Assembly (NCBI GenBank): GCA_035471805.1
Contig: DATIPS010000015.1
Span: forward strand, 1 to 64,000
Length of the DNA stretch: 64,000 nucleotides
From: Acidimicrobiia bacterium
Lineage (GTDB): Bacteria > Actinomycetota > Acidimicrobiia > Spongiisociales > JAHEDJ01
Direction of reading: 5' to 3'
Under the pieces are notes generated by a model, which saw only the letters and a program-made list of their open reading frames with translations, was not told where the DNA came from and ran no database searches. Of the stretch, positions 42,511-45,971 are shown in pieces. Position numbers and translations under genes: made by a program. The first letter of the stretch is position 1. Every line of letters starts with the position of its first letter.

Positions 42511-44337
42511 CTATTCCACCGTCACCGTCTTGGCCAGGTTGCGTGGTTTGTCCACGTCGAGTCCGCGCTGTTTCGCCAGCCAGTAGGCGAGCAGCTGCAA
42601 CGGCACCACCGCAGTGACCGGGCTGAGCAGCTCCGGCGCCCACGGAACAGAGATCACCTCGTCGGCCACGGCTTCACCCTCGCTATCACCCTCGGTGAGC
42701 ACCAGAAGAATGGTCCCGCTGCGGGCTCGCATTTCCTGCATATTGGAGAGCATCTTGCCCTTCACGTGGCTGTTCGTGGCAACGCCGACGACCACCACGC
42801 CCTCCTCAATCAGCGCGATGGGGCCGTGCTTCATTTCGCCGGCCGGGTAACCCTCGGCGCGCAAGTAGGCGATCTCCTTGAGCTTGAGCGCGCCCTCCAT
42901 CGCCACCGGGAAGGCGGCGCTTCTTCCCAGGAAGAAGAAATCACGGCGGTCGGCCCACTGCTCGGAAATCTCACGGATACGGTCGGACTGCCGGAGCACT
43001 TCTTCGACCTGATCGGGCAGGACGAACATCGCCTTCACAGCATTCTGGATGGCAGCGTCGTCGAGTGAGCCTCGCGCATGGGCCAGCCACAGGGCCAGCA
43101 GCTGCATTGCGGTCAACTGGGTAGTAAACGTCTTCGTGGCGGCAACTCCGATCTCCGGCCCGGCCCGCGTGTAGAGCACGGCGTCGGCCTCCCGGGCCAT
43201 CGCCGAGTCGACGACGTTCGTCACCGCGATCAGCTTGGCTCCTTGCGCCCTGGCATAGCGGACGGCTGCCAGGGTGTCCAGCGTCTCGCCCGACTGGGAG
43301 ATTCCCACGACAAGCGTGTTGGTATCGAGTACCGGGTCGCGGTATCTGAACTCGGACGCGATGTCGGTCTCAACAGGCAATCGCGTCCATCGTTCGATCG
43401 CGTACTTGGCCATCATCGCTGCGTGATAGGAGGTCCCGCAGGCAACCACGAATACCTTGTCGAAGGAGCGGGCGGTTCCGACATCGAGGTCGAGTTCGCG
43501 CAGCCGGACCAATCCGTCTGAGTCGAGCCGGCCGCGCAACGTGTCGCGGATCGCCTTGGGCTGTTCGAAGATCTCCTTGAGCATGAAGTCGGGAAAGCCG
43601 CCCTTCTCGGCCGACTCGAGATCCCACTCGATTTCTCGCATCTGCGGTTCAACGATCGTTCCGGATAGGTCGCTGATGGTGATACTTCCTGGCCGTACGG
43701 CCACGATTCGATCGTCGTCGAGGACCGCCATCCGCCTGGTGTATTCGAGGAAGGCCGGAATATCGGACGCCAGGAAGTTCTCGCCGTCTCCCAGGCCTAT
43801 CACCAGCGGGCTGCCACGACGGGCACCGACGATGAGCTCCGGTTCATCGGTCCTGACGACGGCCAGCGCCAGAGCGCCTTCCGCCAATTGCATGACTTCC
43901 CGTACGGCCTCTTCGAGGGGGAGATCGGCCCGATCCTCGATCAGGTGAGCGACCACTTCGGTGTCGGTCTCGGACCGGAACGAATGCCCCGCTTCGATCA
44001 GTTCGGCCTTCAGGTCCGCCCAGTTCTCGATGATCCCGTTGTGGACGACCGCCACGCCTCCAGCGCAGTCCGCGTGCGGATGGGCGTTGATCGTGTTGGG
44101 AGCGCCGTGGGTTGCCCAGCGTGTGTGCCCGATCCCGGTGGTGCCCTGGCTGATCCGTCCTTCCAGTTCGGACTCGAGGTCGGCGATGCGCCCGGCCTTG
44201 CGGGTTATCTCGACTCCGATTTCTTCGAGGATCGCCATGCCGGCAGAGTCATATCCCCGGTATTCCAGACGTCGGAGTCCCCCGATCAGCAGCGCTTGGA
44301 CCGGACGCGGCCCTACATACCCGACGATGCCACACAT
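42511..44337 (-). CDS. glmS: glutamine-fructose-6-phosphate aminotransferase (isomerising)
   Basis: GlcN6P synthase of 608 aa, normal length. The nucleophile is Cys2 (MCGIVGYVGPRP). The N-terminal glutaminase domain (about 1-230) has GIGHTRWATHGAP and VVHNGIIENW; two SIS domains follow (CGTSYHAAMMAKYAIE; ISQSGETLDTLAAVRYA), and the end NLAKTVTVE is invariant in the family. It makes GlcN6P for peptidoglycan. A glmS ribozyme lies in the 5' leader, so the product should switch the mRNA off. Ribosome-binding site AAGGAAAG. Confidence 0.98.
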   Translation of the reverse strand: MCGIVGYVGPRPVQALLIGGLRRLEYRGYDSAGMAILEEIGVEITRKAGRIADLESELEGRISQGTTGIGHTRWATHGAPNTINAHPHADCAGGVAVVHNGIIENWADLKAELIEAGHSFRSETDTEVVAHLIEDRADLPLEEAVREVMQLAEGALALAVVRTDEPELIVGARRGSPLVIGLGDGENFLASDIPAFLEYTRRMAVLDDDRIVAVRPGSITISDLSGTIVEPQMREIEWDLESAEKGGFPDFMLKEIFEQPKAIRDTLRGRLDSDGLVRLRELDLDVGTARSFDKVFVVACGTSYHAAMMAKYAIERWTRLPVETDIASEFRYRDPVLDTNTLVVGISQSGETLDTLAAVRYARAQGAKLIAVTNVVDSAMAREADAVLYTRAGPEIGVAATKTFTTQLTAMQLLALWLAHARGSLDDAAIQNAVKAMFVLPDQVEEVLRQSDRIREISEQWADRRDFFFLGRSAAFPVAMEGALKLKEIAYLRAEGYPAGEMKHGPIALIEEGVVVVGVATNSHVKGKMLSNMQEMRARSGTILLVLTEGDSEGEAVADEVISVPWAPELLSPVTAVVPLQLLAYWLAKQRGLDVDKPRNLAKTVTVE

Positions 44338-44420
44338 CGCGTTCTTTCCTTCCCACGTTCCGCGCCGACCTAATGCCGGCTATCACCGGGACGGTTCGTA
44401 TGCCGCAGCATCTGACTGTG

Positions 44421-44566
44421 GCACCCACATCGGACCGGACTTTGTGGCACCGGTCGCCCGGTGGCTTTGATCCGCTCCGTCACGATCGTGGGAACCGAGA
44501 GGGCATCCGCCGAAGGTTCGATACTCCCTCTTCCTCGTCACCCCTTGCGGGGCCAGGCGCTCCAAT
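44421..44566 (-). ncRNA. glmS ribozyme (GlcN6P-activated self-cleaving riboswitch)
   Basis: The minus-strand leader of glmS carries the conserved blocks of the glmS ribozyme in order. The cleavage-site context is GGA/GCGCC (cut between 44561 and 44560). A short P1 follows (CCCC-GCAA-GGGG), then UGACGAGG (44533-44540), GAGGGAGUAUCGA, UUCGGCGGAUGCC (44502-44514) pairing back through GAGGG/CCCUC, a P3-like GUUCC/GGAGC stem, and P4 CCACCGG-GCGA-CCGGUG (44446-44464) with the same GCGA loop as the Thermoanaerobacter ribozyme. AGUCCGG follows P4. About 83 nt separate it from the glmS start. Sequence and position agree; activity is inferred. Confidence 0.92.
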
Positions 44567-44639
44567 GTTCTGAATCCCGGATTGCACAGAACGATAGTCG
44601 CCGCCACCGGCTCCGGATATGAGGAGCGGCATACGGGCT

Positions 44640-45971
44640 TCAGGCCAACTCGGCTCGCACAACACCGATCAAATCATCGGCGATTGCCGCCGCGCCGTCC
44701 TTTGTCGATGCCTCGACCATGACCCTGATCAACGGTTCGGTCCCGGAGGCTCTGACGAGAATCCTCCCATTCCCGGCGAGCTCCTTTTCGGCTCGCTCGA
44801 CCGCAGACCAGATCACCTCGGACTCCTCCAGACCTTTGGTCTCCCCCACTCTGACATTTCGGAGAATCTGCGGAAACTCGGTGATCGTCTCTCTGCGGAG
44901 GTCTGCGAGCCGCCGACCGGACGCGGCCACCACCTCGACGAGCCGAAGTGCCGTCAGGAGACCGTCTCCGGTCACCAGATCGTTGAGGAAGATGACGTGC
45001 CCCGATTGCTCGCCGCCCAAGGACGCGCCGTGCTCACGCATGCCCTCGAGAACATAGCGATCACCGACCTGGGTCTGAATCAGGTTGACGCCGATGGACT
45101 CCATCGCCTTGCGGAAACCCAGATTGGACATCACGGTGGCAACCACGGTGTTGTTCTTCAGCCGACCGCGCTCGTGCATATGACGGGCGATGACCGCCAT
45201 GATGACGTCGCCGTTGGCGGGTACCCCCTCCTCATCGACCGCAATCAGCCGATCTGCGTCACCGTCGAAGGCGAGGCCCAGGCGGCCTTTCGCCTCCCTG
45301 GCGAGAAACGCAGGGGATGTGGCCCCAACGCCATCGTTGATGTTGGTTCCGTCCGGATCGGCGGCCAGGACCCTGACGTCTGCCTTCAAGCGGTGGAACA
45401 ACTGAGGCGCCGCCTTGTATGCGGCGCCGTTGGCACAGTCGAGTGTCAGCGCGAGGCCGCGGAAGGAGTACTCGGCGAGTCCTGCCAGGAAGTCGAGATA
45501 CTCCGCGAGGGCATCCGTGTTCAAGAACCTGGTGCCGACCGCCTCCCCGACGGCGACGTTGAAGGGGCGATCAGTTCGAAGCCGGGCCTCGATCTCATCC
45601 TCTTCGGCGTCGGAGAGCTTGGCCCCCGTCGCGCCCAGCAGTTTGATGCCGTTGTCCGAGGCTGGATTGTGTGAGGCACTGACGACGGCTCCCATCATTG
45701 CACCGCTGGTACCGGTGAGACGGGCGACCCCTCCGGACGGGAGCACGCCGACGTCGACCGTGTCGATGCCGACGCTGTGGAACCCGGCCTGAAGCGCGGA
45801 GGACAGCATCTCGCCCGACCTCCTGGTGTCGCGACCGACGATCACCGGCCCGCGCGGAAGAGCCTCACCGGCGGCTCGGCTCAGCCGCATTACGAAGTCG
45901 GGCGTCAGTTCGGTGTTCGCGACACCGCGGATGCCGTCGGTTCCGAAGAGTCGGCGACCCTCCTTGAGCAT
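44640..45971 (-). CDS. glmM: phosphoglucosamine mutase
   Basis: GlmM of 443 aa converts GlcN6P to GlcN1P, the step after GlmS. The catalytic phosphoserine is S100 in VVSASHNPASDNGIK; the metal loop is LAFDGDADRLIAVDEEG and the sugar-binding loop GEQSGHVIF; the phosphate-binding C-terminus has RILVRASGTEPLIRVMVE. It starts with KEGRRLFGTDGIRGVAN. The start codon directly follows the rpsI stop. rplM-rpsI-glmM is a conserved operon. Confidence 0.97.
   Translation of the reverse strand: MLKEGRRLFGTDGIRGVANTELTPDFVMRLSRAAGEALPRGPVIVGRDTRRSGEMLSSALQAGFHSVGIDTVDVGVLPSGGVARLTGTSGAMMGAVVSASHNPASDNGIKLLGATGAKLSDAEEDEIEARLRTDRPFNVAVGEAVGTRFLNTDALAEYLDFLAGLAEYSFRGLALTLDCANGAAYKAAPQLFHRLKADVRVLAADPDGTNINDGVGATSPAFLAREAKGRLGLAFDGDADRLIAVDEEGVPANGDVIMAVIARHMHERGRLKNNTVVATVMSNLGFRKAMESIGVNLIQTQVGDRYVLEGMREHGASLGGEQSGHVIFLNDLVTGDGLLTALRLVEVVAASGRRLADLRRETITEFPQILRNVRVGETKGLEESEVIWSAVERAEKELAGNGRILVRASGTEPLIRVMVEASTKDGAAAIADDLIGVVRAELA

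Follow-up and report, generated by a model that had tools for sequence, protein, structure and literature searches.

A complete glmS ribozyme between glmM and glmS in an acidimicrobial actinobacterium

The glmM-glmS spacer

The window (by which we mean the whole stretch of 64,000 nucleotides that was analysed) carries rplM, rpsI, glmM, glmS, acpS, nnrDE and alr in that order on its minus strand, on which all of the window features described below also lie; rplM, rpsI and alr are named here on the strength of their sequences. The phosphoglucosamine mutase gene glmM (44640-45971; TIGR01455 512 bits, above cut-off) and glmS (42511-44337) are separated by 302 nt, counted from the glmM stop at 44640 to the glmS ATG at 44337. 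The product of glmS, the gene that would be regulated, is a glutamine--fructose-6-phosphate transaminase (isomerizing) of 608 residues. It scores 803.5 bits with TIGR01135 (cut-off 418) and 828 bits, likewise above cut-off, with NF001484; its best solved match is E. coli GlmS (4amv, E 6e-155), and by these sequence comparisons it is a canonical GlmS. A ribosome-binding site, GGAAGGA (44347-44353), precedes the ATG. The surroundings of the leader yielded no sigma-70-like promoter, and a promoter and terminator scan of the coding strand gave no usable result; since the genes share one strand and no promoter-like site was recognised, co-transcription of glmM and glmS is plausible.

The middle of the spacer, from 67 nt past glmM to 84 nt ahead of the glmS ATG, is taken up by a glmS ribozyme/GlcN6P riboswitch (44422-44572). 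It is the one gathering-level match that cmscan (Rfam 15) returns for the whole window: RF00234 at 84.9 bits, twice the curated cut-off (gathering score 37), with an E value of 4.5e-18, spanning model positions 1-167 and not truncated. It is also the sole copy in this 2.85-Mb, 97% complete genome. The conserved blocks follow one another as in the known core: AGCGCC at 44561-44556 (its GCGCC at 44560-44556), GACGAGG at 44539-44533, UAUCGA at 44523-44518 and UUCGGCGGAUG at 44514-44504, and then a GCGA tetraloop in P4 (44457-44454) and ACAAAG (44445-44440). The cleavage site of glmS ribozymes is defined as A-1/G1 (PMC7125110, PMC11602151), and alignment of the AGCGCC block to RF00234 places the predicted cut between 44561 and 44560.

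Most of this had been anticipated by the sequence-only reading, which claimed a glmS ribozyme core in the right order and strand within the leader of glmS, put the cut at the same phosphate and looked to the RF00234 model for a decision. Every block that it quoted is in place, the model matches above threshold over its full length, glmS does lie directly downstream on the same strand, and the assignment of the host, an uncultured bacterium, to Actinomycetota holds, its class being Acidimicrobiia. Only the 5' boundary moves: the match begins 6 nt upstream of the 44566 given there. Judged by sequence, then, the element is a real and complete glmS ribozyme of the RF00234 class, ordinary in kind, and its biology is that of the known family.

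Fold, covariation and the predicted switch

Of the 44 pairs that result when the known helices P1, P2, P2.1, P2.2, P3, P3.1, P4 and P4a are written onto the window sequence, 43 are standard; the exception is a G.G in P4. The helices were also placed on a MAFFT alignment (30 ribozymes, all from the window's order) that was not fitted to structure: 93.5% of cells are paired (82% in shuffles, 35-45% when the partners are slid), and there are 166 two-sided compensatory cells, where shuffles give 53 and the slid versions no more than 36. P1 (44540-44553) is a 5-bp stem with a GCAA loop (arms 44553-44549 and 44544-44540), 94% of its pairing being kept in the 30 relatives, with two-sided changes in three of the pairs. 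P2 (44498-44531; AGAGGG at 44531-44526 with CCCUCU at 44503-44498) is paired in 100% of cells, and compensatory changes (GC/AU, AU/GC) occur in three pairs. P3 (44483-44497; CGGUU/GAUCG) is paired in 99% of cells, and its CCCAC loop (44492-44488) forms with GUGGG (44428-44424) the P3.1 pseudoknot (44424-44492), which is paired in 82% and has 17 and 11 two-sided compensatory cells in columns 129/197 and 130/196 of the alignment. P4/P4a (44431-44479), with its GCGA tetraloop and A-rich internal loop, shows two-sided changes in eight of nine P4 pairs and five of six P4a pairs.

The core is another matter: the covariation sits in P2, P3.1, P4 and P4a, while P2.1 and P2.2 are invariant, as expected for an active site. 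The GACGAGG block (44533-44539), whose C and G pair in P2.1, is the same in all 30 sequences, and so are all pairs of the segment from UAUCGA to UUCGGCGGAUG (44504-44523), which supplies the 3' strands of P2.1 and P2.2 to the core double pseudoknot; in P2.2 the CGCC that follows A(-1)G1 pairs with GGCG, and all five pairs are invariant. The homologues of A40 and G41, which come after the P2.1-pairing C and G of GACGAGG, line the active site (PMC11602151). A-1, G1, C2, GACGAGG, AUCGA, UCGGCGG, the GNRA loop L4 and the A-rich internal loop of P4 are active-site or docking positions (PMC7125110, PMC11602151), and all of them are present in the window. At bulge position 6, where A is usual, the window has U, which is tolerated in vitro in the Thermoanaerobacter tengcongensis core (PMC7125110).

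We consider it very probable, arguing for ligand binding, cleavage and decay from the family, that this is a functional ribozyme acting as a GlcN6P-dependent off-switch and inherited with its locus within Actinomycetota. The glmS leader RNA, transcribed by itself or within an rplM-rpsI-glmM-glmS message, would fold into P1-P4 together with the pseudoknots P2.1/P2.2 and P3.1. When abundant, GlcN6P, which is the product of GlmS, would bind the preformed pocket and serve as the acid catalyst, and the RNA would cut itself between A-1 and G1; GlcN6P is the cofactor in the mechanism of the class (PMC11602151). Breakdown of the downstream glmS fragment, which would have a 5'-OH end, would follow, with the RNase J homologue of this genome as the likeliest agent, and less GlmS would then be made. 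In B. subtilis it is RNase J1 that degrades the 5'-OH glmS fragment left by cleavage (PMC3997798). This genome encodes homologues of both RNase J (TIGR00649 475 bits, cut-off 400) and RNase E/G (486 bits, above cut-off), so that either decay route is possible, the Bacillus-type route by the RNase J homologue included. The genome also encodes a second SIS-domain protein (G000:C31:87548-88564, minus strand; L213), 36% identical to the isomerase half of GlmS, which may be a GlcN6P deaminase or a sugar isomerase and as such also influence the GlcN6P level.

Distribution and a giant GlmS

The ribozyme is present in 56 of the 59 nearest relatives and, by a hand count from the class-sample table, in 68 of the 71 genomes of the window's order. 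Within the class it is found in 107 of 247 genomes, namely the 68 of the window's order, the ~1-Mb genomes of g49/f12, and parts of f11 and f13. A phylum-wide sample yielded 75 carriers in 396, in at least seven families outside Acidimicrobiia. A pattern scan of named genomes, which offers examples and not frequencies and includes chance matches (Xanthobacter and Sphingomonas, for example), was used only for loci with both the core motif and GlmS. Among the matches listed, the named carriers of both are Acidimicrobiia including UBA5794 (the NCBI order Candidatus Spongiisociales), OCS155/Candidatus Actinomarina (Actinomarinales), Rubrobacter, Thermoleophilia, Coriobacteriia and Anaerosomatales, and also Chloroflexota and Bacillota; at those with a glmS start the ribozyme lies 124-355 nt upstream on the same strand. 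The suggestion of the sequence-only reading that the element would have an unusual distribution finds no support here, the ribozyme being nearly universal in its order and common in several other actinobacterial lineages.

Four negatives in the order were examined. In three (G027, G168 and G224) full-length glmS is absent from the assembly, so they are uninformative about loss of the ribozyme alone; in the fourth (G054) GlmS is present and the leader is different. Three other loci of Acidimicrobiia (L193, L198 and L200) have a canonical glmS without a ribozyme, the gene following so closely on the end of glmM that there is no space for a leader.

McCown et al. 2011 and 2012 are the main distribution papers of the class. 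These surveys lay outside the scope of our full-text search, in which no glmS ribozyme report for Acidimicrobi- or Rubrobacter and no Actinomarina riboswitch was found; the literature thus covered deals with glmS ribozymes mainly from Bacillota, with none in Acidimicrobiia. The class has been ascribed to "numerous Gram-positive bacteria" (PMC11477304).

Many Acidimicrobiia have instead a giant GlmS-like protein of ~1,130 residues. A class-wide search found it in 99 of 247 genomes, none of them among the ribozyme carriers, and a GlmS search of 13 ribozyme-negative Acidimicrobiia gave such a giant as the best GlmS-like protein in nine (~1,120-1,190 residues; loci L202-L210, for example L206:520-3879 on the minus strand and L202:736-4134 on the plus strand). 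It starts with MCGIVG and has a GATase-SIS core resembling that of GlmS, scoring 234 bits with TIGR01135, for which the cut-off is 418; it also has an insert of roughly 170 residues before the GATase domain and a C-terminal part without assignment. In both loci that were read completely, its gene adjoins acpS. Because each trait is confounded with descent, their mutual exclusion amounts to a pattern and does not prove replacement. It is conceivable, and in our estimate rather doubtful, that Acidimicrobiia have two mutually exclusive forms of GlmS feedback, an RNA switch with a 600-residue GlmS or a switchless giant whose ~500 extra residues may carry protein-level control, with the ribozyme ancestral and replaced when the giant arose.

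Origin, alternatives and known relatives

Outside the window's order the ribozymes lie mostly within one conserved locus: rplM-rpsI-glmM-[ribozyme]-glmS-acpS-nnrDE-alr recurs, among the named loci listed as matches, in Acidimicrobiia, Thermoleophilia and Coriobacteriia. In the GlmS tree (this and the GlmM tree are quick trees with some long branches) the window belongs to a 24-row set with an SH-aLRT of 95 that contains Actinomycetota only, and most Bacillota rows form a separate supported group. The tree rows L041, L042, L056, L192, L195 and L196 are labelled ribozyme-positive by the covariance model, the regex pattern having missed them. Near-universality in the order, presence in other lineages, a shared locus and an Actinomycetota-only GlmS clade indicate an old, mainly vertically kept element; the simplest reading of these sequence comparisons is that the ribozyme has long been present in Actinomycetota, some lineages having retained it and many having lost it. 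Presence at one locus in Actinomarina (a marine lineage with streamlined genomes), Rubrobacter, Thermoleophilia and Coriobacteriia, together with nearly all of an order, suggests old age in Actinomycetota.

Acquisition of the ribozyme together with glmS had been raised as a possibility by the sequence-only reading; the alternative of a recent acquisition of this kind, for instance from Bacillota, is very improbable. What can be said for it is that the window's order holds two GlmS clades without a clear mirror of that split in the GlmM tree: the window's GlmS groups with family f3 and with other classes, and it shares ~67-69% identity with some relatives, ~50% with many members of its order and 55-58% with GlmS from some other classes; in the GlmM tree more of the order stays in one group. 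This pattern makes exchange among actinobacterial lineages, or old paralogy inside the phylum, possible, and hints at exchange of glmS within the phylum. The prevalence of the ribozyme in the order and the recurrence of its locus in three classes speak against a recent arrival, and a transfer from Bacillota with glmS is left unsupported by the synteny and the GlmS tree.

Two further alternatives concern function. The structure could have been kept and the GlcN6P switch lost, leaving a constitutive processing site within the operon that separates glmM and glmS messages, as would suit a ribozyme that lies between two same-strand genes where no promoter-like site was recognised. We think this scarcely credible: every residue of the ligand pocket and the active site is conserved, and in B. 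subtilis only a few active-site mutations abolish the GlcN6P requirement (PMC11602151). Least probable of all is an inactive look-alike, decayed or due to chance; the one P4 mismatch and the unusual bulge base might be cited in its favour, against an E value of 4.5e-18, compensatory changes across relatives and a core intact at all positions. A chance or partial match is ruled out by the covariance-model score and the covariation. The GlcN6P-dependent off-switch, inherited with its locus, remains our preferred reading.

The actinobacterial set extends the natural GC-rich and core-insertion variants that are available for structure-function work. The glmS leaders L195 (G061) and L186 (G063) hold ribozymes with extra sequence between the 5' strand of P2 and AUCGA, a hairpin in L195 and roughly 75-100 nt in L186; the latter has all core blocks intact and scores 35.5 bits, below the Rfam cut-off, so that standard searches miss it. 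In f70, another actinobacterial lineage (L042:1501-1692, L056:1501-1672), an extra hairpin separates AUCGA from UUCGGCGG, parting the 3' strand of P2.1 from that of P2.2.

The nearest named relative that was found, bacterium isolate Ww198 (L098, JAHEDJ010000006.1), has GlmS 95% and GlmM 93% identical to those of the window and a nearly identical leader, with G-C in place of the P4 G.G mismatch and GCAA instead of GCGA in L4. The ribozymes of Rubrobacter, Thermoleophilia, Coriobacteriia and Candidatus Actinomarina (L073, L104, L131, L183) share core motif and gene with the window, and often the locus rplM-rpsI-glmM-[ribozyme]-glmS-acpS; some Actinomycetota differ from it in the extra core hairpins of f70 and in the shorter, AU-rich stems of Actinomarina. 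With the ribozymes of Bacillus subtilis, B. anthracis and T. tengcongensis the window has in common all of the helices named above, the cleavage dinucleotide, the GNRA loop L4, the A-rich internal loop of P4 and the position in the glmS leader. In contrast with these three, its stems are GC-rich, its P1 is very short and closed by GCAA, it has one extra base between P2 and P2.1, U6 for A6 and one G.G in P4, and its host is an acidimicrobial actinobacterium.
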